From positions 1-49,790 of the IMG/VR virus record IMGVR_UViG_3300009703_000030: DNA of 49,790 nucleotides; one strand, given 5' to 3'. The DNA is from a virus. Shown piece by piece: positions 17,320 to 39,103 of this stretch. The notes under the pieces are model-generated. The model did not search any database. It was not told the DNA's origin and was given only the letters and a program-made list of their open reading frames with translations. The position numbers and the translations under genes were made by a program. Within the stretch, counting starts at the first letter, position 1; every line of letters begins with the position of its first letter.

Positions 17320-20300
17320 ATGTCGACTGGAATCTCCCTCGACGAAGTGTTGCAGCAGTACAGCGACCAGACAGCGGAGGTCGGTCAGGATGTGCGCCCT
17401 GCTGGACTCCAGCCCACGGAAGACGACACAGGGTATTTCCCCGAGCGGGACATCTCGCTTGACGACGTGTTGTTGGATCTCGATTTCCAGCAAAAGCACC
17501 CCGAAGGGCGAGAAGCATTCCGTGATGCCACAACGGAAGACGAGGTTGCTGCCGCTAAGGTGTGGATGGAGGCGTATGAAAAGAAGAAGCACCAACTGGA
17601 CCTGAACCGAGAGTTCAGAATTTCTCAGCGTCAGTACGCGAGAGATAACACTTTCCGTGCCGGGGAGTCGATGCGCCAGATGGCGACACTCTCCCAGATC
17701 AGCAGGGCATACGAATCGGACCCGAAAGGTTGGGAGCAGGGGTCAGAGAAAGAGCGACTCGACCTGTGGAACAAGATCCGTGAGAAGGACGGGCTGGAGG
17801 TAGCGACCGAGTTTCCGCAGTTCGGACCCAAGGGAGAGGGGGTCTTTGGTCACGGTCGGCTGGGTCCGATCGGACACAAGCAGGACATCAGCGAACTCGG
17901 AACAAAAGGACCTGATCCGTTCTACCTCCGCTCTCTGATTCGTATACCGCCCACTTCTGTCAAGAGTGTAGAGGACGCTGTCTTCTATGCATCAGTGAAC
18001 GACGCTGCCGAGAATCTCGAAAAGGAGTGGAAGGCTGGACGAGAGGGGCACGCTGACGACTGGGAGAAACTGGTTGCGTTCCACCGCGACTTGGTTCAAG
18101 AGCAGAGGGGGAAGACGGAGGGTTGGCAGGCTGACAACAAGTGGCTTGCTGACGGTGCTGAGGAGATGTACGAGTACATCGGATCGTTCTTTGCTGGAGG
18201 GTTGATTGCAAAAGGCGCGATGAAGATGTTGCCAAAGATGGCAGTAAAGAAGGCGGGCAAGACAGCGGCGAAGAAGAGTCTGAAGAAGGTTGTATCGAAG
18301 CTGATCAAGCGGATGGCGGATCCAGATGCAGGGTTCTTGATGAAGGCTGGGGCAGCGGTGACTGGCGGGTCAGCGAGATTCGCCCTTGGGTTCCCAGCCT
18401 TTGCGCCGATGACAGCCAAGAAGATGTATCGGGACATGGTCCCGGCGACCGCCGTCAGGGAAACTCCTGATGGTGATATCAGGATGCTCGCTGAGGACAA
18501 CAACAACGACTACGAAGCAATGCTCCCCTTCATGCTCGACGCTCTTGGGGATAGCTACATCGAGATCGTGTCGGAGCATTCCGGTGGCGCGCTGGCGAAA
18601 GGTGTTGGCAATGTTGCAGGCGCGGCAGGCCATTACATTGGCAAGTTCGGGAAATTTACCCACGTCGACAAGGCGGCGACTGTCACCTTGGACTACCTGC
18701 GACGGACAAAGCTTGCTGCGATTTACGGTGCGGCTAAGTGGCGAATGATGGAGTTTGGGGAGAAGTTCCTCCCCGCTTGGAACAACACAATGAGCATCGC
18801 CCGAGCGGGCGGGTTCCATGGAATCCTAGAGGAGATGGGCGAAGAGGATGTCGGTCGGATTATGCGGGCGGCTTCGGGCATTAGCTACCCGAAAGACATG
18901 AGTCTTGAACAGCGGCTTGAGCATGCGTGGTCCGAGAGTGTCGACGCAGAGATGCGAATGAAGGAGGCGCAACTGTTCTCTGTCCCCGGAGCGGTAAGTG
19001 CGACGATTGCCGGTGTGGGGGTTGGGGTGGGTCTTCCGGGGGCAATGGTGCGAAAGGGAAGGCGGAAGAAGGCAGAAGCACAGATGGACAGGATGCGTGC
19101 CGCAGAGGAACGCGAGGAGGCTGTCCAGCGAGGAACAGAGGCTGGCGTACAACAACCAAGAACGAAGAGATACACCCCCCATCAGATCGTGTACGGGGTC
19201 GAGGAACACAAAGACCAAGACGAAGCGATGGAGGTGCTGTCTGGGATCAAGTGGAGTGCGAGAGCGAACGAGGGCAAAGGTGGTTTTGTCAAAGCTGATG
19301 GAACACCACTGTCGAGAACAGAGTTCGCAGAACTGACCGGAGGTGTTCGGACTTCGGAATCAGAAGACCTCGTCACAGATAGTGGAACAGTCGTCAAAGG
19401 ACTGAAGAAAAATGCCCTCATAACTAGGTACGTGCAAGAAGTAAATCGACTAAAAAAACAGCGTAAAGCTAGGGAGAGGGAAGAGGTATCCCCCACCGGA
19501 ACCCCACGAGAAGAGCGTGAAGAACCGGTTGGCGGTCAGGAGTTCAAGACGGCGAGAGAGGCACAAGACGACCCACCTGCGGAGGAACTCTCGGACGAAG
19601 AGTATCGGGAGCAGTTGGTCGATGGGACCTTCGGTCGTGGGAGCAGGGTCTTTCGTGTGGGAGATACCCCGCCAGACCGACCGGGTGTGTCGGAAGCAGA
19701 CGACGTTGAAGAGGGGCAGATCCACAGGGAGTTGCGGACTGCCAGTAGGTCGCTTGGGATCGAGGGGAACGTCCTCATTGTGGACCCAACGCTCGAAGCA
19801 ACTACCCCCGGCGCGTTCGATCCACGGACGGGTGACATCTATCTTGCCCGCGCCACTGTCGACAAACACCGCGCGGAGAATCCGAAGTCGCCCGCCAAGG
19901 CAATGCGGAAAGCGGTCGAATCAGTCTTTGCGCACGAGTGGACGCACCGCCTGAGGAGAACAGACAATGAAGCTTGGGAACAGATCCGTCGCACCACCCT
20001 TGCTGAAGAAGATGCAAGGGCGGCATTCACAAGGATGGCAACAGGCGACCCGCTCCCAGCCAGACCCACAGAGCAGGAGGCATTCGACGCACCCGGATTG
20101 CGGTTGTTCAAGCAGTATTTCGCGGACATGGAGGCGGCGGCAGAGAAGGGTGACCCAGCGGGCAAGAAGTTCATGAGAAAGTGGCACGAACTTGCAAGAC
20201 GAGCAAAGTCTACAGACCCGCAAGACAAACCGGGAGAAGCACGCGAAGAGCAGATGAACTTGATCTGGGATGAGGGGACCGCGAACTTCATCGAACAGAA

Positions 20301-23300
20301 CTTCACCAAGATGGGGTTCTGGTCAAAGATCGCGAAGAAGGATGCCGGGTTGTTCCGGCGAGTCACCGACTTCTTTCGCAGGATGTTCTACAGCGTTGCG
20401 GACTCAGCGACATTCCGCGCAATTGACAACGCAATCAACCGTGCCGCAGAGAAAGCAGACTTCCCGAAAGCGGGAGAGATGGAACTCCGCGACCCGCTGT
20501 TCGCCGCACCTCGCTTCGAGGCATTCACGGAAGCGGATCGCACCACAGCACAGAGAACATTTCGGCACGGCAGGTTCACTGACAAAAGGATCGTGGTCGA
20601 CCGTGTTGCCGACACCGTTGCCAGTTGGAACCGGCAGGCCCCGCCGGATGTGTTGAACTACGGGGCAGGCAAGGCTGACGGCTTGAAGCACAGTCAGCGG
20701 ATCAGGGACTTAGGGGCCAACGTGGTCAGCCACGACTTCCCAGAGAGCATGGCGACATGGCCAGAAGAAGAACAGCCGCCCCCGAGTGACCAGATGCGAG
20801 GGATCCGCCGCAAGCACGATATCGTATTTGCCAGCGCGGTTCTGAACACGATCCCCAGCCGGGAAGGTCTGGAAACATCGATCGCCCAGATCGCTAACGC
20901 GACGAGGGCGAAAGGTGTGGCGATCGTGAACTACCCAAGGTTTGACCAGCACCCGTTGTCGAAGGTCCCGCAAGAAGAGTTTGAGTCTATGCTCAACCAC
21001 TACTTCGGTCGGGTCCGTCGAGTGAACCAAGACAACGCCAGCCCCATGTACGAGGCGTCACAGCCGAAGCGGGCAGCACTCCCATCTGGACCCCTGTTCG
21101 CGGCGAGGAAGGCGGCGACAGAACCAAGGAAACTGTCGAATCGATTTGAACTCGTGAAGGTCAAGCCCGGCACAAGCCTGTCAGATGCATGGGGTGAAGA
21201 GGGCTTGTACATGATCGATCGCGAGAGCGAGGTTCCGTACAACAACCTCAACCCACGCGAGGGAGGTCTGGGGGCAGAGAGTTACTGGTCTGGGGGCAGA
21301 GGGACGTTCCACCAGTTCCGTGTACAGGGTCGCCGGTACGTCACGTACCCTTTCTACAAGGCGAGAGAGAAAGAGGCCAACGAGATCGAGGGGGTCAAGG
21401 TTGGGGATCCCGTCGCTGTTGTCATCGAGGTTGGCGGTCAAGACTACACGCCCGAAACACTCCCGCGACGGACGATAAAAGACTGGGAGTCCGGGGCTTA
21501 TTACGCCGCTCCTCAACAGCAGACAGCGTTCGGTGACCCTGCGTTCAACCCGACAAACATCAACGAGATGCTGGAGGGAATCTTCAACCAGCGTGGCATC
21601 GAGGATGCTGGTTACCACCCGCCTGATTACAGGCAGACTCAGGTCAGCAGGGCAACCTCTCCCGTCCCCGGCAACCCACCCACCAGAGAACTGGGTGGGT
21701 TTCTCGGCGGGTTCGCGATCAGTGCGGACGCACCCAACGAAGACATAAACCTCCTACGCAACAGGTTCCCCGGACTGGGGGGAGAACTGGAATTCTTTTC
21801 GTCCGTCAGCGGGCGTCGCGATAGCGGGTTTGGTTCTGACGCCACATTCGTCGTTATCTCTACAGCAACACACGGCGATACCAACGGTGTAGCCCACCAC
21901 CTACTGGTACAAACGACGGACCTTCCATTCAGGGTCGCCAATAACACGGATGAGGGAAGAGAGCTACAGGAAGAGAGGACGCGAGAACTCAGCAGGAATA
22001 TGAGAAATCACGGACTAGACCCCGCCTTTGAAAGGTTCGGCAGGGGCATGGGTGTGGATCTCGCAGAAGAACTACAACTGTTCCCCAAAACAACCCACGA
22101 CGCCCGTCCGAAACTGCTCCTGCTTGGCACACACTTTGTGAATGGCATGTACAACTTGGATGGTCAAGTTCTCACACCCGCAGCCCGCTTGGGTGTAGTT
22201 GCGCGTCCGTGGACGGTTGTTGGTGGCCACCTGTTAGAGGGCAGCGGGGGCGTGATTGCTACTCGCACTCCCTTTGCGCGTGTTGGGCAGATGGACAACG
22301 TATATGGGTCAAACGAAATCCTGCTCAGGGATGAAATGGGCGTGCCGCTTGAAACGGAAGAAACACTATCCCTATGGCGGGACGCTCTGCTTGCTGACTA
22401 CGCGACAACCATCAATGAACTCAACAGAATGGTGAGGGTTCAGTTGCAGTCGTCACAAGGGCCCGCGCCGGTCTTGGCTGGATTGTCACAAGAGGGTCGA
22501 CAGGAAGACGACATTCGATCCGACATTGAACAACGAGTAGAGGCGACGGGGGCAGACCCCCTGCTCATCGTCGATCGCCAGCAGATCTATTCGGACTACG
22601 AGATCGGTGCTTATTCGGGACCAGACTCCAGTTTCCCGGTGGCTGGCAGGGGACTAAACGAAACTATCAACGCTCTCGTCAACTACCATCCACAAATTGA
22701 GGTTGCCGGTGTATTCCATCGTCCCGGTATTGGGCTGAATGAAGTTGTTGAGGATGCCCGCCTCTCCGAAAATCTGACCCAACTCCAACTAGTGGAAGAC
22801 AACCGTGTCGAGGAAATGATTGTCGTTGTCGGCAAGCATCTCGGAGGTCAAAGCAGAGGGGGGGTGGTAAACAACCCGGAACAGTACATGTCCATCAGGC
22901 TGGTCAGGGTGTCGGGCAGTTTCAGCACGACAGGCGACAAGACTTGGCTGCCAACGCATGTCCGCATGTCGATGGAAAAGGAGAGATTCGCTGACGTAAG
23001 CGAAATGACCATCCAGAGAGGGTCGGTTGAACTCGCCAGTGCTGGGGTGACGGGCATGATAAGGGTTCGTTCTGCGGGGCCGATGATCAGACAGACCCCG
23101 GAACGCATTGGTCTTCTCGCTCACGGAATCTCCAAGATCCTCGAGTCCCACCTCTCCTTAGAACGGGATGTGATGCAAGGGGAACCGGACTGGGTGTATG
23201 GGGAACCGTTGCAGGGGGACATGTGGAGCAAGTTCCGAAGCCGCGCTGGACAAACCCACTCTGGTGTCTACTTCGCCCGTCGCATGGATCTCCCAATGCG

Positions 23301-26300
23301 AGATGGCTTGATGCAGTACATTCATGAGTTTGGGCAATTCACACGGGAATCAGTAAACGAACAAGAGCGACATGTTGCAGACGCATTCGGGCGATCATCT
23401 CCTACTGCTGGAGTCACTCTTGCCGAGAACAGCACAAGGTTATTGCGGCAGCGATGGCCGCGACTGAGGGGGTTGAGGGTCATCAACCCGACCATTGGCA
23501 ACAGGGAAGTTGCGCTGGTTTTAGGACTAGACAACTTAACGCCAGCAGACGAATTCATCGTGATAGGACTGAAGGAGGAGGCCAACCCAGACACCGGTAA
23601 GCTTGAGTGGAAATACGCTCCGGTTGATGCGGCCCCAGAATGGAACACGCTTACTACATGGGAAACGCATGCGGCAGACATGGTGATCCGAGCGGGTGGT
23701 TCTCGTATCGTTGACCAAGAGGAATCACTCAGTAGGTTCAAGCTGATAACTGACCTTGTGGTTATGGAGTCTGATGCAGGACAACCCCTGCACTTCGCTG
23801 ACGTTCTGACCACCGTCGATCTAGACGCTGGAGTGATGTCCGAGAGAGGGACCTCCGTCAACATGATCATTCAGATGGAGGATGTAGAGACTGGAGAACC
23901 CAGAGAGGACGAGGAAGAACTACTCCTGACTCCACACCGATTGATCAGCAACTCAACTGAGGACCAGCATGTAAATGCGTATGGCCAAACAGAGGTAAAG
24001 GCATACGGACACAAGGTCGTCAAGCCACTAAAAAACATCGTTGATCTTGCCTACGAGATCTCAGGAAAAGGCCGGGCAGAAATGACATCGGACGAGTTCT
24101 GGACCCTGATCCAGAACATGTCTACTGACGATGTTGGGCCGCACTGGCAAGAAGGAGGAGGGGAATCGATAGAGCGGAGAGATGTAGAGTCACACCAAGC
24201 ACACGGACCACAGCAGCGGCAAGACAAAGAGATCTTTGACGAGTATTTCCGACTCCGATTTCGTGAACTGGGGATCGCAGGCGACACATACAAGATGAAC
24301 GCTGTGCGTTATCACTCAGGTCTTGACAATGTTGGCGTCTTGGAACAGGGCATTGAAGGGTGGGATTCAACGGAAACCGCAATACAGCGACACCAAGACT
24401 TCTTGGAAGCTTTGGTCAATGATCCTAGAGTCGTAAGCATCACCATAGAGAAGGGTGTTGGGCAGGACCCGTCCGTTCTGACGCGACACATAAGCAGCCG
24501 TGTTTCTCTCCCTTCTGCCGCCTATACCGCGATGCCCACTCTGAACAACAGGGACTACTTCACCGTCAATTTCGGAAGGGGGATGGAGGCGACCCTTCAG
24601 ATGACTCCGTCGATCTACATCTCCATCATCAAGAACGCGATGTACGCTCCTGACGCCAGAGATACAGGAAGGGCTAATGCAGCAATGGCGGCGATTGCTG
24701 ATGCGGCAGACCGAACAGATTCTGTTGTCACGGGATATCCCGCCGCTTTCGGGGCCATGCCGCAAGGACAACTGATCAGGTGGTACGGCGCAAACGGCTA
24801 TGAACCGGTCTTGCTGCACATGGTCGCTGACCAGTTGTGGCATGGTGGAGGAGATGCGCACTTGAGTTGGCACGGATGGCGACACCCCAGCACTGAAGAG
24901 AGGGTGTGGGAGGCAGGCAAACCTTTTGTGAACGAAGAGGGGCAGGCGTTGTGGGGGTGGGAGGGTAGGGTTCCACCACCACAGATGAAGGCGATGCGAC
25001 CTAGATACGAAGAACCCAAGCAAAACAGCGGACCACAACACAGCGACATCCTCACCGACAATGTGAGCAATGTCATCAACCTTGAAGCGTGGGGCAAATT
25101 GACGGAAGAACAGAAAAAGAAAGTGGGAAGATTCAAGGATGGCGTGTGGAAAGGGGCAATGAAGAGGTATGACAATGGAGATCTGTATCCCAAGCAAATG
25201 GAAACCAGAACGGCATACCTAAAACGACTCTCAGATCAGGGCATCACGCCATACTACGCCGCACAGACACGGACCCTTGATGACCTGAAGGTCACAATCC
25301 CTGAGGCTGAACGTCTGTTCCAGACAGCCGGGTATCGTCGTGGTCGTTCCATGGCGAGGACAATGGAAGGCAAGAACTTCATGCAACTGGACCCGGATCG
25401 GGTTGGCCCAGTGTCATCCATACTTGAAGGGATCGGGTCCGATCAGGTTAGCGCAGACCTACAGCGTCTTTGGGATGAAGTTATCAGCGAGATGCCGCTG
25501 TGGCAGGGGAAGGACGGGAAGACACAGTTCGAGGAGGCGAACTCTGCGCTCAAGGATGAATATGGATTCAAACTTCCCAACGGGTGGGAGAAGAAATTCC
25601 CAACAGCGGGCGACTTTCTTATTGGTTCAACTGCACTGCGGGATGAGTTCAGGTATTGGTACGAGAGATACGTGACTGCGTCACGTCAGTACCTCGACCT
25701 GACTGACCACGAGTGGGATGTATTCAACAAGGTGCTGGCAGCGACAAGCCAGAGAACCAATGTCAAAGACAACATGGAGAGAACGCTCTCGATCATGTCG
25801 GAGATCTTTGGTAACCGGTTCGGTTCCACCGATGTCATCTCCGACCAGTCCATTCGCAACGCACTCAATGGCCAGTTGGGCAGCGAGGATCAACTGAAGA
25901 CTGGATCGTTCAACGCCACGTTTGAGTTCATCGCTGGACGAGGGGCGAACGTACCGCTCTCGACGAACGATGCGATTATGGCGAAGGTCTTTGGTCTTCC
26001 GGGTAACGCATTTGCTGACTCGTTCTGGTACGAAACCATCAGCCGTTACATGATCAAGATGTCTGGCTACCTGAACTCGAAGCAGGGTGGAGAACTCGAA
26101 CCCTACCAGCCATGGCAACTACAGGCGTTGATGTGGGTCAATCGAGATGATGACCGGGCGTCCCAGACCTACGTCCAGACCCTTGAGTCTTTCATCGAGA
26201 GGGCGATCGAGGCTGGCGTGATGAAGCCGGGTGAGAAGATCCGACCTGAGCATCTTGCAGACCCAGAGATGAGTGATATCGCTAGGTCTGGCAAGCACAG

Positions 26301-29300
26301 CCACTTCCACAGAACACCTAGAGGAATCTACACACTGAAGGGGTCCGAGTATCGTCCCGTCCAGAGGGCGAACATGCTCAGGAACCTGCTCAGGTGGGGT
26401 GCTTCACATCTTGCCGTGCCTGAGCGGATGCGGACTGCTATGGCGAACAGGATCGCCAACGGTTACGACGCAGCGTGGCGGGCATTCTCGAAGAAGATCA
26501 GCGGCAGCCAACCCTACAAACGCCCCTTAGATAGCGGGATACTCAAGAACGGCGACATCCTCACGGAGTTGTTCTCAGCGATCAGTGGTCTGAAGGCTGG
26601 GTACACTGCCGTGCTGGCCGACCCTGCCGTCACCAGAGCGAGTCGGGTGAAACCAGCGACGACCGGGGGAGCAATCTACTCGGAAGACGCCGACTCGACG
26701 ATGACCATTCCGTTCTGGAACGTCGACAACTTTACCCGGCAGATGATGAACGCACTCATCGGCAGGGCGACTGGGTCTGGTGGTGCTGAGTCGGTTCGCA
26801 TGCAGGTCCATGACGGTGAGAGCGGAATGGAAGTCCAGCGTGGTGAGATCAAGTACACCACGAGCGGGGTGTTTATCAAGGACCTGAAGTTGACCGAAGA
26901 ATCCACCCGGTGGATCGGTGACTGGGTGCGAGAGAACATCGGTGGAGGGTTCCGTCTTATCACTGAGGTCAACTGGTCTGGGTCACAGATAGTTGCGGTC
27001 GCCCCCACAGCCTTGTCGATGCGGGCAACCAGTCGACGACAGCCGACGATAGGCATCAGGCAGCAGGACCTTGTAGATGCTGTCTTCAACACCGTCGCAG
27101 AACACGAGGGTTGGTCTGAGAACGAGTTCGTGGAAAGGGTTCGCCCCGTACAGATGCTGGTGAGTTTCAATAAGCGAAGTGACCAGTTGACTCAGGGGGA
27201 TTACACTGGTGTAATAGACCGTGGCTTAGAGAAGATACTGAATCAGGATACCGAGAACGATGGCGAACAACTTTTCAGAGGGATCAAAAGGTTCTCAGGA
27301 ACAAGCCGGGCAGCCGAACCAATTCGGCTTATCGTCAGGGACGCCGCAAAACGGAAGCGAAAGGGATTCGAGAATCAGCTTCGACGACTCCTTCAGCGAC
27401 CAGAACAGTTTCTTTCAGAAGTCGACTGGGCCGACATACAAGAGCGCACCGGAATTGAAGACGGCGTCGAAAGAAGAGTACGAGAAGCTCTGGCGCGGTA
27501 CTCACGGTACATACGTGCAGTTGATGCAATCGAACAGCTTGGGTCTGCCGCAGGCGGCTTTCAATCTCGACTCGACAAGTTCTCGGAAGCGTCGATAAAG
27601 CTGCTGGAGCGGGCTGAGAAGGCGGCCAACAAAGAGGGCCGCGATTTCGACTACAAGTCCGAGGCCACCAACGGTCCAGAGGATCGTGTCGCCCGCATCC
27701 CGTCAGGTGTCTTGTTTGCTGCACGCAGGCGACGGTCTGACAACCTTGCGAACCCGGCGACTGATCAGGGGGCTAGGGATCTTGTCGACTCCGTTGACCA
27801 GCAGGCGAGGGAACTTCTCGACCTTGCGGGCATACGTGAGTGGCGGCACATGAACAGGGACGAGGTCCGCAGGCAGACCGTTGTCGAAGAGGAGGGTGAG
27901 GAGAGGATCTGGAAACTGAGCGCGGCGAGAGTTCGCAAGCAACTCCTCGATAAGATGGAGGTCGGTCGCGCGTTCACCGATGTCGACACGTATTGCGCAA
28001 AGAAGCTGATCAATATGTACGGGATCCGGTCGATCCAGTCTGGCAACCCTGAGGAACTTCGGGCGACGATTGCCTTGATCGAGGGTTACAGGGACGTCGG
28101 CACGGAAATGGCGAGAGCGTTCCGCCAGAGGTTCGACCCGATCGAGACCCCTCGTGAACGGCGGAAGCGTTTGATGACGGAGGGCATCCTGCGTCCAAGC
28201 GCGAGGTTGCAGAGAAAGATCGCAAAGGCGAGGCGAGATAAAGACGCCGAACTTCTGAAGTTATTGCGCGACTCGATTGCCGATGAGAACGTAAAGCTTC
28301 TGGATCATTTGACGAAGCTGGGGTTCGACCTCGACAACATCGAAGAGTACGCAAACGACCCTCGTTCCACGTTCCAGATACTCCGTATTGCTCAGACCTT
28401 CAAGGCGAGCAACGGTGACAAGGCATACGAGTGGTATATCAATGCACTCCTCTCCGGTGTGTCTACACAGGTCGCCAACGTCGTCGGCACTGTGCCGTTG
28501 TCGATCTGGGAGTACGCAGTGAAGCGACCGCTGGAAGCGGTGGTCAGCCTGCCCATACGCAAGGGCGAGAGGGTCACGTTCGGTGAGATCAAGCATATGT
28601 GGGGTGCGTTCTGGCCCCACATGAAGAAGGCGGCGAGGATCGCCCTCATGGCCCACGACACAGAGGTCCCTCAACTTGAGGTGATGCTTGGTCGCGGGGT
28701 GCAGGGTCTTCAGAAATATGAGATCCCAACCGTTTCGATCAAGGGCAGGAAGGGGAGGTTCATCCGTTCCGGGTTCACCGGGCTGACGGGAACCCGGATG
28801 CTTCTTGCGGTCGATGAGTTCATGAAGAGTGTGATTTCAGGAATGGAGGTCAACGCACTCGCCTACCGGGAGATGGTGGCGAAGAATGTGTGGAAAAGAG
28901 CGTTTGACGCAGCACTTGATATCGGGTCAGTCGGTGTGCAGAGCGAGGTCCCTCGTGGTCGAGCGAGGACTCAAGCTGAAGCCAGACAGATGGCTGACCA
29001 AGCAGTGTCTGTTGCGATGGCTGAACTGATCGCAGACACGGAGGGAATAAAGTCTGATGTCTGGGACCGGTCGATGGACATGGCCCACCTGCTCACGTTC
29101 CAAACAGAACTGGGTCCGATCGGGCAGAAGGCTGTCGCGCTGCGGGACTCTGCGTTCGTCTTTAAGTACATCGTTCCTTTCGCAAAGACATTGATCAACA
29201 TCACCAAGGTTGGCCTGTTCCCGAGTTCCCCGTACTCCGCGCTTGGCTTCGCTGAAATGCCCAAGGAGATCTGGGACCTGTACATGAAAGAGGATCCCAA

Positions 29301-30729
29301 GGCCAAGCTTGGGTTCCGGTTCGTCAAACCAGAAGAACGCGACTGGACGAAGGTGTCGTCGAGGGCCATCGCTCAGGCGGGCAACTTCCTTGCGTTCATG
29401 GCGTTGTACAGCCTTGTGGATGGCGACGACGACGAGCGTCCGTGGGTGACTGGAAGCAAAGAGGTCTGGAGCTATCGAAGCAGGTTGACGGGGATGCGAG
29501 CGGGAACACCGCCGCCACTGTCCTTTGCGGTCCCTGTTCTCAGAAACGGTCAGATAGACAAGGGTCCATATGTTTCTTTCGCAAACGTCGAACCGATATC
29601 CACGATCTTTGGGTTCGCGATCGATGCGATTCTGGCAATAAAGAGCGGCGACCCTGCTCGAATGGCGACAGACCTGCCGAAGAGTCTGTCTGGGCAGATC
29701 TTTGAGAAGAACCTAACGAGAGGCGTAAGCGATTTCTTCAAGGTCTTTGAACAGCCTGACATCTACGGACCCAAGTACCTGTCGCAGTTCGTCACCGCAT
29801 GGATCCCCGGCGTCTACAAACGAATCGCCAGAGCAGACCGCGACTACCTGCCAGACAGGCGGGTCTACGGGGACGGTACAGACTGGCTGAAGATGCTGGG
29901 CCGACGCACCATTGAGAGGACCGAGATTGCCAGACACATCTTCCCGAACTTCGTGATCGACCGCCCGGCGTGGGACATCTGGGGTAGGCACATACCGTCT
30001 GACGTAAACCCAGCGATGCAGACCAAGGGCATGAACTGGTTGTACCGCGCGATGATGCCGTTCCACACCCAGTATTCCGAAGAGTTCCCGATGGATGTCG
30101 TCATCAGGAAATGGAACGACGAACACAACGATCCACGAGATCAGGTGCATTTCATGCCGCCCCGACCAACGTGGAAAGACCGTCGTGGTGTCGAGCATTA
30201 CATGACCCCGGAACAACTCGACCAGTTCCAAAAGCTTTCAGGTGACATCGCCCGCGAGGTCGCCAAGATGGAGATGCCGTTCATCGACTGGAGCAAGCCA
30301 ACATCCCAGCAAGACGCTGATGCCGTGAAGAGCGTTGTCAACGACAGCCGTACTCTCGCCAAGGATACCCTGTCGAAAGTGTGGATAGGTCGGACGACGG
30401 AGGCGGATGCTTACGGTGAACTGGCAGGGGAATTGCACCGGAAGCATATCGAAAAGCAGGCGGCACTTCTGGCTAGGCCCGCCCCGTCCCGCAAGGCACT
30501 CGGTGTCTACAAGAACAAAGAGGACTGGGAACTTGAGGTTGAGAAGTGGGAGGACAACAAGAGGATGGCGGCAGAGTGGTTGAAGAACCGTGGCATCACG
30601 AAGAAGCAGGTGTTCAAAGCTTTCCCGTACCGCAAGGGTCCGCAGGCTAGGCTGAGGCTGGCGGGAGGGCTTGCCAAGTACGGGGTCAAAGCAAACCGGG
30701 GAACCGGTGAGGGGGCGGTTGCTCCGTAG
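17320..30729 (+). CDS. giant 4469-residue polyvalent internal virion protein
   Basis: ATG 17320 to TAG 30729, 27% of the genome. Order seen: helical and amphipathic N-terminus with basic Lys-rich and hydrophobic segments (~280-620); a zincin-like peptidase (HEWTH, residues 872-876; candidate third ligand E985 in WDEGTANFIE); a class I methyltransferase domain (LNYGAG at 1112-1117, HDIVFASAVLN from 1166); a long block without recognised domain (~1264-2750); a helical domain at ~2770-2940 (KVLAATSQRTNVKDN, then STNDAIMAKVFG) like the DUF/HhH-type domain in other large phage proteins; and a C-terminal part with the 'NALLSGVSTQVANVVGT' (3708-3724), 'FKYIVPFAKTLINI' and 'YVSFANVEPISTIFGFAID' segments typical of large ejected phage proteins. 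LFAA motifs mark domain junctions (1060-1063, 1259-1263, 3465-3469). It is likely packaged and ejected with DNA, protecting or remodelling it. Giant size suggests processing. Confidence 0.85.
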   Translation: MSTGISLDEVLQQYSDQTAEVGQDVRPAGLQPTEDDTGYFPERDISLDDVLLDLDFQQKHPEGREAFRDATTEDEVAAAKVWMEAYEKKKHQLDLNREFRISQRQYARDNTFRAGESMRQMATLSQISRAYESDPKGWEQGSEKERLDLWNKIREKDGLEVATEFPQFGPKGEGVFGHGRLGPIGHKQDISELGTKGPDPFYLRSLIRIPPTSVKSVEDAVFYASVNDAAENLEKEWKAGREGHADDWEKLVAFHRDLVQEQRGKTEGWQADNKWLADGAEEMYEYIGSFFAGGLIAKGAMKMLPKMAVKKAGKTAAKKSLKKVVSKLIKRMADPDAGFLMKAGAAVTGGSARFALGFPAFAPMTAKKMYRDMVPATAVRETPDGDIRMLAEDNNNDYEAMLPFMLDALGDSYIEIVSEHSGGALAKGVGNVAGAAGHYIGKFGKFTHVDKAATVTLDYLRRTKLAAIYGAAKWRMMEFGEKFLPAWNNTMSIARAGGFHGILEEMGEEDVGRIMRAASGISYPKDMSLEQRLEHAWSESVDAEMRMKEAQLFSVPGAVSATIAGVGVGVGLPGAMVRKGRRKKAEAQMDRMRAAEEREEAVQRGTEAGVQQPRTKRYTPHQIVYGVEEHKDQDEAMEVLSGIKWSARANEGKGGFVKADGTPLSRTEFAELTGGVRTSESEDLVTDSGTVVKGLKKNALITRYVQEVNRLKKQRKAREREEVSPTGTPREEREEPVGGQEFKTAREAQDDPPAEELSDEEYREQLVDGTFGRGSRVFRVGDTPPDRPGVSEADDVEEGQIHRELRTASRSLGIEGNVLIVDPTLEATTPGAFDPRTGDIYLARATVDKHRAENPKSPAKAMRKAVESVFAHEWTHRLRRTDNEAWEQIRRTTLAEEDARAAFTRMATGDPLPARPTEQEAFDAPGLRLFKQYFADMEAAAEKGDPAGKKFMRKWHELARRAKSTDPQDKPGEAREEQMNLIWDEGTANFIEQNFTKMGFWSKIAKKDAGLFRRVTDFFRRMFYSVADSATFRAIDNAINRAAEKADFPKAGEMELRDPLFAAPRFEAFTEADRTTAQRTFRHGRFTDKRIVVDRVADTVASWNRQAPPDVLNYGAGKADGLKHSQRIRDLGANVVSHDFPESMATWPEEEQPPPSDQMRGIRRKHDIVFASAVLNTIPSREGLETSIAQIANATRAKGVAIVNYPRFDQHPLSKVPQEEFESMLNHYFGRVRRVNQDNASPMYEASQPKRAALPSGPLFAARKAATEPRKLSNRFELVKVKPGTSLSDAWGEEGLYMIDRESEVPYNNLNPREGGLGAESYWSGGRGTFHQFRVQGRRYVTYPFYKAREKEANEIEGVKVGDPVAVVIEVGGQDYTPETLPRRTIKDWESGAYYAAPQQQTAFGDPAFNPTNINEMLEGIFNQRGIEDAGYHPPDYRQTQVSRATSPVPGNPPTRELGGFLGGFAISADAPNEDINLLRNRFPGLGGELEFFSSVSGRRDSGFGSDATFVVISTATHGDTNGVAHHLLVQTTDLPFRVANNTDEGRELQEERTRELSRNMRNHGLDPAFERFGRGMGVDLAEELQLFPKTTHDARPKLLLLGTHFVNGMYNLDGQVLTPAARLGVVARPWTVVGGHLLEGSGGVIATRTPFARVGQMDNVYGSNEILLRDEMGVPLETEETLSLWRDALLADYATTINELNRMVRVQLQSSQGPAPVLAGLSQEGRQEDDIRSDIEQRVEATGADPLLIVDRQQIYSDYEIGAYSGPDSSFPVAGRGLNETINALVNYHPQIEVAGVFHRPGIGLNEVVEDARLSENLTQLQLVEDNRVEEMIVVVGKHLGGQSRGGVVNNPEQYMSIRLVRVSGSFSTTGDKTWLPTHVRMSMEKERFADVSEMTIQRGSVELASAGVTGMIRVRSAGPMIRQTPERIGLLAHGISKILESHLSLERDVMQGEPDWVYGEPLQGDMWSKFRSRAGQTHSGVYFARRMDLPMRDGLMQYIHEFGQFTRESVNEQERHVADAFGRSSPTAGVTLAENSTRLLRQRWPRLRGLRVINPTIGNREVALVLGLDNLTPADEFIVIGLKEEANPDTGKLEWKYAPVDAAPEWNTLTTWETHAADMVIRAGGSRIVDQEESLSRFKLITDLVVMESDAGQPLHFADVLTTVDLDAGVMSERGTSVNMIIQMEDVETGEPREDEEELLLTPHRLISNSTEDQHVNAYGQTEVKAYGHKVVKPLKNIVDLAYEISGKGRAEMTSDEFWTLIQNMSTDDVGPHWQEGGGESIERRDVESHQAHGPQQRQDKEIFDEYFRLRFRELGIAGDTYKMNAVRYHSGLDNVGVLEQGIEGWDSTETAIQRHQDFLEALVNDPRVVSITIEKGVGQDPSVLTRHISSRVSLPSAAYTAMPTLNNRDYFTVNFGRGMEATLQMTPSIYISIIKNAMYAPDARDTGRANAAMAAIADAADRTDSVVTGYPAAFGAMPQGQLIRWYGANGYEPVLLHMVADQLWHGGGDAHLSWHGWRHPSTEERVWEAGKPFVNEEGQALWGWEGRVPPPQMKAMRPRYEEPKQNSGPQHSDILTDNVSNVINLEAWGKLTEEQKKKVGRFKDGVWKGAMKRYDNGDLYPKQMETRTAYLKRLSDQGITPYYAAQTRTLDDLKVTIPEAERLFQTAGYRRGRSMARTMEGKNFMQLDPDRVGPVSSILEGIGSDQVSADLQRLWDEVISEMPLWQGKDGKTQFEEANSALKDEYGFKLPNGWEKKFPTAGDFLIGSTALRDEFRYWYERYVTASRQYLDLTDHEWDVFNKVLAATSQRTNVKDNMERTLSIMSEIFGNRFGSTDVISDQSIRNALNGQLGSEDQLKTGSFNATFEFIAGRGANVPLSTNDAIMAKVFGLPGNAFADSFWYETISRYMIKMSGYLNSKQGGELEPYQPWQLQALMWVNRDDDRASQTYVQTLESFIERAIEAGVMKPGEKIRPEHLADPEMSDIARSGKHSHFHRTPRGIYTLKGSEYRPVQRANMLRNLLRWGASHLAVPERMRTAMANRIANGYDAAWRAFSKKISGSQPYKRPLDSGILKNGDILTELFSAISGLKAGYTAVLADPAVTRASRVKPATTGGAIYSEDADSTMTIPFWNVDNFTRQMMNALIGRATGSGGAESVRMQVHDGESGMEVQRGEIKYTTSGVFIKDLKLTEESTRWIGDWVRENIGGGFRLITEVNWSGSQIVAVAPTALSMRATSRRQPTIGIRQQDLVDAVFNTVAEHEGWSENEFVERVRPVQMLVSFNKRSDQLTQGDYTGVIDRGLEKILNQDTENDGEQLFRGIKRFSGTSRAAEPIRLIVRDAAKRKRKGFENQLRRLLQRPEQFLSEVDWADIQERTGIEDGVERRVREALARYSRYIRAVDAIEQLGSAAGGFQSRLDKFSEASIKLLERAEKAANKEGRDFDYKSEATNGPEDRVARIPSGVLFAARRRRSDNLANPATDQGARDLVDSVDQQARELLDLAGIREWRHMNRDEVRRQTVVEEEGEERIWKLSAARVRKQLLDKMEVGRAFTDVDTYCAKKLINMYGIRSIQSGNPEELRATIALIEGYRDVGTEMARAFRQRFDPIETPRERRKRLMTEGILRPSARLQRKIAKARRDKDAELLKLLRDSIADENVKLLDHLTKLGFDLDNIEEYANDPRSTFQILRIAQTFKASNGDKAYEWYINALLSGVSTQVANVVGTVPLSIWEYAVKRPLEAVVSLPIRKGERVTFGEIKHMWGAFWPHMKKAARIALMAHDTEVPQLEVMLGRGVQGLQKYEIPTVSIKGRKGRFIRSGFTGLTGTRMLLAVDEFMKSVISGMEVNALAYREMVAKNVWKRAFDAALDIGSVGVQSEVPRGRARTQAEARQMADQAVSVAMAELIADTEGIKSDVWDRSMDMAHLLTFQTELGPIGQKAVALRDSAFVFKYIVPFAKTLINITKVGLFPSSPYSALGFAEMPKEIWDLYMKEDPKAKLGFRFVKPEERDWTKVSSRAIAQAGNFLAFMALYSLVDGDDDERPWVTGSKEVWSYRSRLTGMRAGTPPPLSFAVPVLRNGQIDKGPYVSFANVEPISTIFGFAIDAILAIKSGDPARMATDLPKSLSGQIFEKNLTRGVSDFFKVFEQPDIYGPKYLSQFVTAWIPGVYKRIARADRDYLPDRRVYGDGTDWLKMLGRRTIERTEIARHIFPNFVIDRPAWDIWGRHIPSDVNPAMQTKGMNWLYRAMMPFHTQYSEEFPMDVVIRKWNDEHNDPRDQVHFMPPRPTWKDRRGVEHYMTPEQLDQFQKLSGDIAREVAKMEMPFIDWSKPTSQQDADAVKSVVNDSRTLAKDTLSKVWIGRTTEADAYGELAGELHRKHIEKQAALLARPAPSRKALGVYKNKEDWELEVEKWEDNKRMAAEWLKNRGITKKQVFKAFPYRKGPQARLRLAGGLAKYGVKANRGTGEGAVAP

Positions 30730-31073: not shown

Positions 31074-31283
31074 ATGCTCGTACTCGGAAGACGACCCAAT
31101 GAGTCCATTGTAATCTCAACCCCGGTGGGGGAGGCAAAGATTACAGTGTTTGCTCAGGCCAATGTGCGGTTGGGGGTCGAAGCACCGGCAAACATGGTGA
31201 TCCGGCGAGATGAGATTATGGTGAAAGGGGTGAGGCGCAATGAACAAGACGATCGGGGAGTGGAGAGAGTGGCTGGGGAGTGA
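31074..31283 (+). CDS. csrA: CsrA-family translational regulator
   Basis: 69 residues from ATG 31074 (SD GGAGGA at 31064-31069). An in-frame ATG at 31038 is rejected because it lacks an SD. The protein begins MLVLGRRPNESIVI. L4, R6 and R7 match the RNA-contact residues of CsrA, and the IRRDEI block (R45 aligns with E. coli R44) and VRLGVEAPAN match the family's second motif, with one residue added in the loop. CsrA dimers bind GGA in mRNA leaders. Here it could control its own leader, other phage mRNAs or host flagellar/carbon genes. It is the first gene of an operon and overlaps the next gene by 44 nt. Residues after ~55 (NEQDDRGVERVAGE) are a longer tail than usual. Confidence 0.9.
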   Translation: MLVLGRRPNESIVISTPVGEAKITVFAQANVRLGVEAPANMVIRRDEIMVKGVRRNEQDDRGVERVAGE

Positions 31284-32235
31284 GGTCGGGGAAGACATCC
31301 CCGATTCTAACCGGGACGTTGTGGTCGCAACCCTCGCTGGGATGGCGGCAGCCTACTGCAACCATTATGCGTGGAAGCTGAAGACCGTCGACCTGCATGA
31401 GGTCGAGTCAACCTTGAGCGGATCGCTCATCAACCCGGATACTTTCAGGTCAAGCCGCAACTATTCTCTGGCCGGGAAGATCGACAAGGTCTGCACCGTG
31501 GACGGCGAGCTATGCATCGTCGACCACAAGACAACGTCGTTCGACATCTCGGACCCGGACTCGCAGTATTGGCGTCAACTCGCTGTCGATACTCAGGCCA
31601 GCATGTACTACATGCTGATGCTCCAGAACGAGCGGAAACCGACACGGATACTTTGGGACGTGGTCCGCAAGCCACGAACACGCCCCAAGCGTCTGTCCAA
31701 GAAGTATCTGGAACTGATGGAGAACCCTCCAGAGAACGGGATTGAAACTCCCGACATGTTTGCCGACCGGGTGTACCACGACATCGCGGAAGATCCCAGC
31801 AGGTACTTCCAGCAACGGGCTATCGTGATCAACCCGAACGAGTTGAACGAGTTCATGACCGACGTGTGGAACATCGGTCAGGAGATCGGCACTGCCGTGA
31901 GGAACGACAGGCATCCGAAGAACCCTTCGGCCTGCATGCTTTACAACACCCCCTGCAACTACCTTGGTGTGTGCAGTGGGCACGATGATTTCGGGTCAGG
32001 CAAGTGGAAGCAGTCTGACGTAACCAACCCTGAACTTGATGAAGGAGAAGATGAAAAAGTAATCACCAACAGCAGGATGAAGTGTTTCCTGTCGTGCCGA
32101 AGGAAGCATGAGTATCGCTACAACAAGCGGTGGACAAGGATCGAGGAACCTCACCGTGAGGCACTCGTCTTTGGAACAATCTGGCACAACATCATGGATT
32201 ACATTTGGACAGAACTTACTGAGGTGCAGAAATGA
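31240..32235 (+). CDS. RecB-family PD-(D/E)XK exonuclease with permuted motif order
   Basis: 331 residues, ATG 31240 (in-frame stop at 31231). The catalytic core is clear: GKID (D82), IVDHKTTS (D95, K97), Q119...Y123 in DTQASMYYML, then WDVVRKPRTRP. Three cysteines (232, 239, 245) look like a Cas4/AddB-type iron-sulfur or zinc site. Oddly, the block that normally opens such proteins, S..K.F.SCRRK.EYRY plus a FGT..H helix, is absent from the N-terminus. It appears instead at the C-terminus (residues ~277-325, with C282, C286 and H316). In the phage recombination setting (next gene an ATPase, then SSB) it should degrade DNA 5'-3' or trim ends. Overlap with the next ATG is 4 nt. Confidence 0.75.
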   Translation: MNKTIGEWREWLGSEVGEDIPDSNRDVVVATLAGMAAAYCNHYAWKLKTVDLHEVESTLSGSLINPDTFRSSRNYSLAGKIDKVCTVDGELCIVDHKTTSFDISDPDSQYWRQLAVDTQASMYYMLMLQNERKPTRILWDVVRKPRTRPKRLSKKYLELMENPPENGIETPDMFADRVYHDIAEDPSRYFQQRAIVINPNELNEFMTDVWNIGQEIGTAVRNDRHPKNPSACMLYNTPCNYLGVCSGHDDFGSGKWKQSDVTNPELDEGEDEKVITNSRMKCFLSCRRKHEYRYNKRWTRIEEPHREALVFGTIWHNIMDYIWTELTEVQK

Positions 32236-33065
32236 ATGTGACAGCAAAGAAAACTGCCCGGTCATCGGGGTCGGCCAGTCTGCTGAAGCAGATCGTCAAG
32301 GGGATCGAGTCCCGCCCGTCATCGGGGATGGTCTGGGGTCAAAGTGGAGTCGGCAAGAGCAGCACGATTGGGTGGATACCCGGCGTGGTGATCATGCGGT
32401 TCAGCGACGAGGACCCATGGGCGTCGTTGAAGAGAAGTGGCATCGTGCCAAAGGATCTCGCCATCCTTCCGGTCGTTAGTAGTTGGCCGATGGTCATGCT
32501 GGTCCTTCAGGAACTTCTCGACGAGGACCATGATTACAAGGCTATCGCGATCGACACGATCGGGTCGCTTGAGAAGTTGTGCCACAAGCACGTGACTGAA
32601 CGTGACTACAACGGTGACGCCACGGATCGTGGTTTCCTGCGGTACATGGTTGGGTACGAATCCTCGCTTGTTGAGTGGAGATTAATGCTCTCGGCTTTGG
32701 ATGCACTTAGGGACCAGAAGCAAATGTCGGTCGTGTTCACGGGGCACTCGAAGACGAAGCCCCACCGTGACCCACTCCTGCCAGACTATGACAGGCATGT
32801 CGTCGACATCCACGACAAGACGTGGAACGTCACGCATCGCTGGCTGGACTGGTGCTTCTTCATGAACCGGATCGTTGATGTGGTGACTGAAGAGAACAGG
32901 TCGAAGGGTCGGTCTGATGGGAGCAGGGTGTTCCACACAGATTGGTCTGCTGGGTACGACGCCAAGAACCGCTTCAACATCCGTGAGGATCTTGACGCTG
33001 GCGATAATGGCAAAGAGGCGTGGTCCAACATCATGGAAGCAATCAAGAAAGCGAGGCAGTCATGA
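32232..33065 (+). CDS. Sak4-like AAA recombinase ATPase
   Basis: 277 residues, ATG 32232 overlapping the nuclease stop (ATGA). Walker A is GQSGVGKSS (residues 36-44) and Walker B is IAIDTIGSL with D108. The order and length fit the AAA_24/Sak4-type single-strand annealing ATPases that accompany phage Cas4-like exonucleases and SSB. It would load onto ssDNA made by the nuclease and help annealing or strand exchange. The downstream stop overlaps the SSB ATG (ATGA). No unusual residue is seen. Assignment to Sak4 rather than another RecA-like phage ATPase rests on context. Confidence 0.8.
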   Translation: MNVTAKKTARSSGSASLLKQIVKGIESRPSSGMVWGQSGVGKSSTIGWIPGVVIMRFSDEDPWASLKRSGIVPKDLAILPVVSSWPMVMLVLQELLDEDHDYKAIAIDTIGSLEKLCHKHVTERDYNGDATDRGFLRYMVGYESSLVEWRLMLSALDALRDQKQMSVVFTGHSKTKPHRDPLLPDYDRHVVDIHDKTWNVTHRWLDWCFFMNRIVDVVTEENRSKGRSDGSRVFHTDWSAGYDAKNRFNIREDLDAGDNGKEAWSNIMEAIKKARQS

Positions 33066-33553
33066 GTACATATGAAGAAGGCACACACAATTGCAGAGTC
33101 ATTGGTCAGGGGTTCTCGAAGACCCCGAACACTGGCACGGAATACTTCGGCATCGAGGTCCAGCCTGATGGCGGTGCGTTCCCAAGAACAGTGAAACTCT
33201 GGTGCAATTCTGAGGCTAACGTCGAGCGAGCTATTGCCCGGCTGAAGGATCTCGGATGGGACGGGGGGGATTGGAATGATCTCAACCCGGCCAGTGGCAC
33301 GTTCTCTCTGGTTGGGACCGACCTCACGCTGATCTGCCGTCATCGAAGCGATGACCAAGGCAGGGTGTGGGAGGACTTCGACTTCCCTTTCCCTGTGGGC
33401 AGCAGCACATCGACGACGAGCAGTGGTCTAGTCGATGACGACAAGCTGGCTGCCAAGCTGAACAGGCTGACCGGCAGGGGGAAGAAGAAGAAGAAGAAAC
33501 CGGAACCGGAACCAACACCGGAACCGGTCAGTGCTGACGAGGCCCCATTCTGA
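33062..33553 (+). CDS. single-stranded DNA-binding protein (SSB-like)
   Basis: 163 residues from ATG 33062. Upstream in-frame start codons are rejected because this one overlaps the ATPase stop. Residues 1-110 are beta-rich and could form an OB fold (CRVIGQGFSKTPNTGTEYFGIEV, then FSLVGTDLTLICRHRS). A Ser/Thr-rich linker and a Lys/Pro/Glu repeat (GRGKKKKKK, PEPEPTPEP) lead to an acidic end SADEAPF that mimics the SSB acidic tip DDDIPF. Such tips recruit other replication proteins. The position after the nuclease and ATPase completes a recombination module. Confidence 0.7.
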   Translation: MSTYEEGTHNCRVIGQGFSKTPNTGTEYFGIEVQPDGGAFPRTVKLWCNSEANVERAIARLKDLGWDGGDWNDLNPASGTFSLVGTDLTLICRHRSDDQGRVWEDFDFPFPVGSSTSTTSSGLVDDDKLAAKLNRLTGRGKKKKKKPEPEPTPEPVSADEAPF

Positions 33554-37371: not shown

Positions 37372-38139
37372 TCAGGCGGCAGTCAGATGCTTGTCCAAGA
37401 TCCCGTGCAGTCGCTGGGTCCGACTCGACAAGAGGTTCAAGCTGGAACCCTTGAGCGACTCGGTGAAGGCGTTGTACAAACGCCACCCAGTTTGGCCGTC
37501 GACCTTGAACTCAGGGTGGCGTGGATTCCTCCACTCCTCCATCACCTGAGGGATCTTGGTCGGCGGCAGGACGTTGCGGTCCATCGCTTCGATGACGAGG
37601 TCGTTCACCTCGCCGTGCGAGAGTTCGGACGACTTGTACAGGTCGTGCCGTTCCTCAAGCTTGATGCGATGATCCGCCAACTTGCCGACAGCATCACCGA
37701 CGACTCGGTCGAGTCGGTCGAGGATGTACCGGGTGTGGCGGGTCGCAACCTTGACCTCACCTGAGAAGGCGAGGTTGTCGCAGACGAACACCTGCGACCC
37801 CAAGACCAGTGCCGCCGGGAACCGCTTGTCGTGCGAGTTCCTGACACCAGCGATCAGGGAGGCATCGTGCCCGTTGCCGATGAGCGACGCGCCGTCGCCA
37901 CCGGCAGCAGCACCCAACTGCATCAGGCCGAAATACTGCTGACCTTCGCGGTTGAGAGCATGCGCCTCATTCTCCAGTTTGTACCCGGAGTTCTCGAACG
38001 CAGACAGTGCCTTGTCCCACAACACGGTGTGTGGGATGGGGACGTGGCTGTCGCTCGCCGGGGGGGTAATGGAATTCCGCATCTGCTCGCGGCTGACACG
38101 GTTGGAACCACAATGCGTGTAGAGGTCTACTTTTCTCAT
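37372..38139 (-). CDS. DUF932-family phage/plasmid-like protein
   Basis: 255 residues, ATG 38139 overlapping the recombinase stop (TGATG). The central block ALNREGQQYFGLMQL, then SLIGNGHDASLIAGVRNSHDKRFPAALVLGSQVFVCDNLAFSGEVKVATRHTRYI, is the signature of DUF932, a family frequent in phages and plasmids with unknown function, often near replication or recombination genes. It is in the early-type minus operon. The N-terminus (MRKVDLYTHCGSNRVSREQM) is not diagnostic. Confidence 0.75.
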   Translation of the reverse strand: MRKVDLYTHCGSNRVSREQMRNSITPPASDSHVPIPHTVLWDKALSAFENSGYKLENEAHALNREGQQYFGLMQLGAAAGGDGASLIGNGHDASLIAGVRNSHDKRFPAALVLGSQVFVCDNLAFSGEVKVATRHTRYILDRLDRVVGDAVGKLADHRIKLEERHDLYKSSELSHGEVNDLVIEAMDRNVLPPTKIPQVMEEWRNPRHPEFKVDGQTGWRLYNAFTESLKGSSLNLLSSRTQRLHGILDKHLTAA

Positions 38140-38864
38140 CACTCACTCTCTCTTTCTTTGATGCCAGCCACGATCCGGCGGATCGTTTCGGCGTGCCAGC
38201 GTTGACCTCTCGGAGGAACATTCTCCGCAATCAGGTCACGCTTGATACCGCCAACAGACACGAAATTCCTAGATAGGTGTCTAGTGACAATCTCGATCCC
38301 TCGCTGCTCTTCAGAATTCTCGACCATCCGTGTCGGATCGTCAGGATCTTTCATCATGCCGTAGGGCAGAGATCCGCCCATCCGGCGACCGTTCTTCATG
38401 TGCTGCTTCATCGCAGCGGAAGTCCGCTCGACAACCAGATCACGCTCGAACTTACACTGCGCAAGCCGGGTCGTGAAGAACAGGTAGCCGACTGCTGTCG
38501 ACGTGTCGATGGTGCAACCTCCCTCGCAGGCGAGGTGCAATGATACACCCAATTGCATCCATTTGTCGACGCAGTTGAGTCCATCCGCAGTGTTGCGGAA
38601 CAGACGGTCCAGACGCTGGGCGACGATCTTGTCACCACGATCGGCACGGGTAAGCAGACGCCTACCCTCCGGTCGCTTCGACAAGGCATCATCACCACTG
38701 ACGTGAGGGTCTTCGAGGAAGACGACCTCCTCGTCCGAGTCCTCGAACAACCCGGCGAACTCACAGTATTTTTCGCACTGCTCCTTCTGGGTGTCCAGAC
38801 TCTCGTCCACTGTCACAGAACGGGTCCGTGACGGGGACTTCCTTGAGTAAATCCAGATAGTCAT
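38139..38864 (-). CDS. serine recombinase (resolvase-type, small)
   Basis: 241 residues. ATG 38864, chosen because it overlaps the previous stop and carries the shared SD cassette. The catalytic N-terminus is clear: IYSRKS with R8 and S10, SLDTQKEQCEKYCEFAG, then VSGDDALSKRPEGRRLL and IVAQRLDRLFRNTADGLN, matching the resolvase/invertase family. After ~residue 150 only a short 'recombinase'-type helix block (MKNGRRMGGSLPYGMM...) and a small C-terminal helix (KRDLIAENVPPRGQRWHAETIRRIVAGI) are present. The long zinc and coiled-coil parts of large phage integrases are missing. It could be a resolvase, an inversion enzyme or an atypical integrase. Confidence 0.8.
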   Translation of the reverse strand: MTIWIYSRKSPSRTRSVTVDESLDTQKEQCEKYCEFAGLFEDSDEEVVFLEDPHVSGDDALSKRPEGRRLLTRADRGDKIVAQRLDRLFRNTADGLNCVDKWMQLGVSLHLACEGGCTIDTSTAVGYLFFTTRLAQCKFERDLVVERTSAAMKQHMKNGRRMGGSLPYGMMKDPDDPTRMVENSEEQRGIEIVTRHLSRNFVSVGGIKRDLIAENVPPRGQRWHAETIRRIVAGIKERESE

Positions 38865-39103
38865 TTCTGCACCTCGCTTTCGTAGAACTGGAAGACCACG
38901 TGGTCCCCGCCTTGCTGGACACGGACTTTCTTTCCGCACCTCCTCGCATACTGGTAGGCGGCCTGAACGAATGAGCTTGACCGGACGACGAAGTCCTTCC
39001 CTTCCTCGACCCTCCAGACCTCGCCGTTCGACCACTCCTCCCACGGATACCTCCGGTTCCCGCTCCGATCAGAGAATGTGAAGTCTTTCAGTTTTTTAGC
39101 CAT
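38861..39103 (-). CDS. small protein, unknown
   Basis: 80 residues, ATG 39103, SD GGAGG upstream (gggaggatacca). It has an aromatic-rich core (RYPWEEWSNGEVWRVEEGKDFVVRSS) and a basic middle, ending HVVFQFYESEVQK. The ESEV end is the translated SD cassette of the next gene. It overlaps the previous gene by 8 nt. No family recognised. One of a series of small early proteins. Confidence 0.6.
   Translation of the reverse strand: MAKKLKDFTFSDRSGNRRYPWEEWSNGEVWRVEEGKDFVVRSSSFVQAAYQYARRCGKKVRVQQGGDHVVFQFYESEVQK

Follow-up and report, generated by a model that had tools for sequence, protein, structure and literature searches.

Does a phage nuclease gene whose conserved motifs run in an unusual order encode a genuine circular permutant of its fold, or a truncated second copy fused to what was left of the first? 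The question is raised by an open reading frame in the window, the whole stretch of 49,790 nucleotides analysed here (virus record IMGVR_UViG_3300009703_000030 of IMG/VR). A preliminary description had given the motif order of the protein encoded at 31240-32235, and both the translation and the profile matches agree with it. GKID (residues 79-82), VDHKTT (94-99), Q119..Y123 and C232-x6-C239-x5-C245 come first and are followed by a linker and the opening block, which contains TNSRMKCFLSCRRKHEYRY from residue 276 (with C286) and then FGTIWH at 311-316 (with H316). The catalytic D, (D/E)-x-K and Q/Y motifs of PD-(D/E)XK enzymes are present as D82, D95, K97, Q119 and Y123. The cysteine ligands were also expected to be contiguous, and C232, C239, C245 and C286 indeed lie together, within one 55-residue stretch that should be handy for mutagenesis. 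The features of the locus are as follows.

31074..31283, + strand: CsrA-like regulator gene, overlapping the start of the nuclease gene (Pfam CsrA, E 1.5e-11)
31240..32235, + strand: circularly permuted PD-(D/E)XK (RecB/Cas4-like) nuclease, 331 amino acids (open reading frame; two stretches, in rotated order, that match PDDEXK_1 and PHROG 1218)
31315..31983, + strand: nuclease core, residues 26-248, with GKID, DHK, the Q/Y motif and three cysteines (PDDEXK_1; our own core profile)
31474..31536, + strand: catalytic motifs GKID (79-82) and VDHKTT (94-99) (60-row alignment)
31933..31974, + strand: C232, C239 and C245, three presumed Fe-S ligands (invariant in 60/60 rows)
31984..32055, + strand: junction, residues 249-272, linking what was the C-terminus (..NPEL) with the former N-terminal block (homologue spacing; junction alignments)
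32056..32214, + strand: displaced opening block, residues 273-325, with C286 and FG..H316 (PDDEXK_1 and PHROG 1218; invariant residues)
32232..33065, + strand: Sak4-like ssDNA annealing ATPase (PHROG 124, E 2.5e-26; Pfam AAA_24)
33062..33553, + strand: SSB-like protein with an acidic tail ending ADEAPF (profile link to the annotated SSB of Tunturi_2)

Family profiles match in rotated order

Pfam PDDEXK_1 matches residues 27-245 of the nuclease at model positions 84-246 (E 9e-15), with a score of 55.7 bits against a curated cut-off of 22, and a match to this family is found in all 23 members of the permuted alignment. PHROG 1218, the best family of the core, matches residues 30-249 at positions 98-333. 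When the C-terminal 63 residues are scanned alone, they match PDDEXK_1 at positions 4-50 (E 2.7e-5) and PHROG 1218 at positions 6-56 (E 4e-11); the opening blocks of two homologues match PDDEXK_1 with E of 2e-9 and 4e-8. Because core and block both have their best match in one family, the rotation of one gene is favoured over the fusion of foreign pieces.

The standard order of PDDEXK_1 has the opening block first, whereas in this nuclease the block is last. The phage exonucleases of PHROG 1218 / PF12705 share with it the motifs, the four cysteines and the Sak4 neighbourhood, but their profiles start with the opening block and the nuclease ends with it. A profile built from 14 standard-order homologues matches the nuclease at residues 30-257 (model positions 82-315, iE 4e-51) and then at 273-325 (model positions 3-53, iE 9e-10), and core first, block second was the outcome in 26/26 permuted proteins tried. 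The protein is thus arranged as a circular permutant, in which every part of the parent fold occurs a single time, in two swapped profile stretches with only one block. Judged by sequence, the rotated order is far beyond chance. A profile scan of the protein, its locus and the whole window detected no second opening block, which disposes of a truncated second copy as a reading of the protein as it now stands, since no first copy of the block is left.

Homologues and conservation

Homologues were gathered by tblastn against phage records, by IMG/VR scans with growing alignments and by genome scans. We found approximately 59 distinct permuted proteins, in IMG/VR phages, the isolates Tunturi_1 and Tunturi_2, and planctomycete contigs, together with 24 standard-order proteins. 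Each of the permuted proteins has one opening block only, always C-terminal to the core. In each of four other phage records (49-66 kb), matches of the PHROG profile are confined to the two parts of a single gene; in a planctomycete genome, a separate 738-amino-acid frame matches as well, besides the permuted gene. Planctomycete genomes carry both orders, standard (for example L122, L123, L124, L126, L131 and L133) and permuted (L121, L125 and L127). A plasmid search gave no match, and a profile search of PDB sequences gave nothing useful. Several standard-order nucleases (L017:372-1625 and L052-L060) have a four-cysteine, zinc-ribbon-like insert directly after FG..H.

Since nearly 60 different relatives keep the same rotated order, we conclude that the enzyme fold was genuinely rearranged long ago and that the gene is not a broken one. 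The window comes from a metagenomic virus record, the kind of source in which an assembly or annotation artefact might be suspected. There is practically no chance of this here, and the explanation is ruled out by the genomes of two isolates and by dozens of other, independent contigs that have the same order at 35-45% identity.

Across 60 aligned rows, C232, C239, C245, C286, Q119, Y123, G312 and H316 never vary. Nor do D82 and K97 in the rows that include them, and position 95 is either D or E. The stretch from C245 to C286 measures 41-44 residues in most rows. H316 we take, from known RecB-family structures, to be the metal-site histidine. The cysteines follow the AddB/Cas4-type pattern, with C286 in the opening block and C232, C239 and C245 after the core. 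A set of four conserved cysteines is the defining feature of the Cas4 module (PMC5704561). Two residues of the block, the presumed cluster ligand C286 and the histidine H316, are conserved as strictly as the core motifs, which is the strongest argument from sequence that block and core work together. This conservation also bears on the idea of a degenerate fusion, in which a nuclease without its own opening block carries a leftover fragment of a second copy and is inactive or partly active. The protein may have passed through a stage of this kind, tandem duplication being the usual route to permutation. As an account of the present protein, however, it is highly improbable, given intact core motifs, invariant C286, G312 and H316, and a rotated order that persists through deep divergence.

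Predicted structure

An AlphaFold model of the nuclease, made with the alignment of 23 permuted homologues, has a pLDDT of 91.9 and a pTM of 0.86, and the displaced block has a pLDDT of 93-96 over most of its length. The elements of the model begin with H5-15, H22-47, E50-64, E71-87, E90-99, H, H, E, H, H, E and end with H199-221, H242-245, E256-258, H277-285, H287-295, E298-300 and H307-330. The model of a standard-order homologue, L047 (pLDDT 83.6, pTM 0.80; 14 sequences), begins with E3-5, H7-15, H17-25, E28-30, H39-53, H55-65 and H69-81 and continues with E89-103, E110-126, E132-140, H, H, E, H, H, E, H228-251, H271-274 and E286-288. The order in the nuclease is therefore that of L047 with the opening elements shifted to the end, and the cut lies between H39-53 and H55-65. 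Short strands occur on both sides of the junction (256-258 and 274-275 in the nuclease, 3-5 and 286-288 in L047). In the models, these junction-flanking strands suggest that the chain ends adjoin each other in the standard-order form.

Of the two possibilities in the preliminary description, genuine circular permutation is the one borne out, by a full profile matched once in rotated order, by the distinct homologues that keep this order, and by a predicted structure whose elements are rotated as well. In the permuted protein, a short linker connects the old C-terminus, past the three-cysteine segment, with what used to be the N-terminal block, and the new termini fall between the two helices after the FG..H motif. 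The opening block would fold back onto the core, where C286 may be the fourth cysteine of an Fe-S site, beside C232, C239 and C245, and H316 may join D82, D95 and K97 at the metal site. Alternatively, the block could pack on the core of a neighbouring subunit, making the enzyme an obligate dimer or ring. The junction from C245 to C286, at about 40 residues, is long enough to reach a neighbour, and rings are known in the same fold class, being formed by lambda exonuclease and RecE. However, the single-chain model is confident throughout, as its pTM indicates, and we regard such a domain swap as unlikely.

The solved nuclease domains of AdnA, AddAB and RecB share the core fold with the nuclease but have the standard order. 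AdnA aligns to the nuclease model with Z 9.2 and an rmsd of 3.4 over 182 residues. ACE1, of an Argonaute-associated Cas4 family and likewise of standard order, aligns with Z 7.8 and an rmsd of 3.3 over 176 residues, and its alignment starts at chain residue 71-80. These and the other solved domains align only to approximately residues 1-250 of the model. In contrast, the top match in BFVD, the PD-(D/E)XK nuclease A0A6J5NSY1 of an uncultured Caudovirales phage (TM 0.81/0.78, 22% identity), aligns sequentially over all 343 residues, and from this comparison of models it is probably permuted too.

Gene neighbourhood and proposed role

The Sak4-like gene lies directly after the C-terminal block of the nuclease, as had been noted from the window. 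Sak4 is downstream of the nuclease in 55/57 permuted loci with enough sequence, an SSB-like gene is downstream in 54/60, and a CsrA-like gene is upstream in 13/60. The SSB-like protein of the window has no Pfam match of its own and carries an acidic C-terminal tail (..SADEAPF). In phage HK620, the SSB tail is required for the stimulation of Sak4 annealing (PMC5928155). As regards CRISPR Cas4, a kind of nuclease associated with Cas1, Cas2 or other CRISPR genes, the recognised neighbours here are the CsrA-like, Sak4 and SSB-like genes, and the best family match is to the phage exonucleases of PHROG 1218.

Among standard-order genes, Sak4 is downstream in 15/21 and upstream in one (L047). In this last locus (L047:2147-4633), the order of Sak4, SSB and nuclease differs from that of the other loci seen. 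Homologues of standard order at this position had been named beforehand as evidence against the permutation. They do occur beside Sak4 in other phages, but they sit on other branches, and the permutation is therefore not refuted by them.

We consider it very likely that the gene encodes a functional, circularly permuted, Fe-S-containing exonuclease of the RecB/Cas4 type, belonging to a nuclease-Sak4-SSB module; its activity, cluster and packing we infer. By analogy with lambda Exo, which feeds Beta, its job is most likely end resection that feeds annealing by Sak4. The nuclease would resect DNA ends and pass single strands to Sak4. The lambda Exo-Beta (Red) system likewise places an exonuclease beside an annealing protein. 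It differs in that here Sak4, with its RecA-like core, replaces Beta, and in that the nuclease is permuted and has a presumed Fe-S site.

Probable exchange of the block in Tunturi phages

The 'exonuclease' genes of Tunturiibacter phages Tunturi_1 and Tunturi_2 (PP887698, PP885685) are permuted like the nuclease, with approximately 36% identity to it over residues 21-328 (tblastn, phage records), and have Sak4 and SSB downstream. Unlike the window, they have a 66-amino-acid open reading frame that separates the nuclease from Sak4. The paper describing the Tunturi genomes mentions neither 'exonuclease' nor 'Sak4' in its main text, nor a gene permutation (PMC11924767). Between the two phages (L003:4804-4983 compared with L006; Tunturi_2 and Tunturi_1), about 180 nucleotides covering just the block are 62-77% identical, whereas the nearest flanks are 88-100% identical. 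Codons with silent differences make up a share of 0.53 in the block, 0.12 in the core and 11/296 in Sak4. Divergence limited to the block, silent sites included, suggests a cassette exchange between Tunturi_1 and Tunturi_2, and at the sequence level points to recombination as the process that replaced the block.

Origin of the permutation

The textbook route to a circular permutation is tandem duplication followed by loss of the outer parts. The present permutation probably arose in this way: the gene was duplicated in tandem, the copies fused in frame, and the first then lost its block and the second its core. No duplicated intermediate with a block at both ends was found among 120 loci.

In a core tree of viral homologues, the permuted proteins are on one side of one branch (86/78), and in a tree of block and core that includes planctomycete homologues the main permuted group has support of 98/98. 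Two permuted nucleases, L116:288-1514 and L117:2131-3303, fall near standard-order proteins with a common insert and may represent a second, independent permutation that started from another standard-order subfamily. L116 has its closest core relatives in the standard-order L131, L133 and L126, with which it shares an insert after a YDV.KP-like motif, and more than one change is needed in 97% and 72% of bootstrap trees. However, a standard core recombined into a permuted gene would look alike, block exchange by recombination is seen in the Tunturi phages, and the AU test does not reject a single clade (p 0.51, 0.52), so that one event and two are both compatible with the trees. We hold a second origin to be possible, but the less probable alternative. 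A tentative extension of it, of similar probability, would have at least two permutations at an equivalent site, favoured because the Fe-S cluster would staple the natural ends and so let the fold tolerate being re-joined, with the block also moving between phages as a cassette.

Relation to known enzymes

The kind of enzyme is already known. What appears to be new is the rotated order in RecB/Cas4-type phage exonucleases, for which we do not claim priority. In the open-access literature searched, we found no report of the present case of circular permutation in PD-(D/E)XK or RecB nucleases. The main review of the PD-(D/E)XK superfamily reportedly may list circular permutation among the variations of the fold. 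The family is a natural permutation of a presumed metal-cluster nuclease. Its approximately 59 sequences, together with close relatives that keep the standard order in the same place among their neighbour genes, make it testable how a permutation arises and whether an Fe-S cluster staples the chain ends. They also carry a warning, in that sequential profile and structure searches catch permuted enzymes only piecewise.

Other features of the window

Between the apparent structural genes and the recombination module, a single open frame of 4469 amino acids occupies 17320-30729, with no Pfam match at E 0.01. On the minus strand, the open reading frame at 38139-39044 resembles a serine recombinase by eye (WIYSRKSPSR..QKEQCEKYC..).
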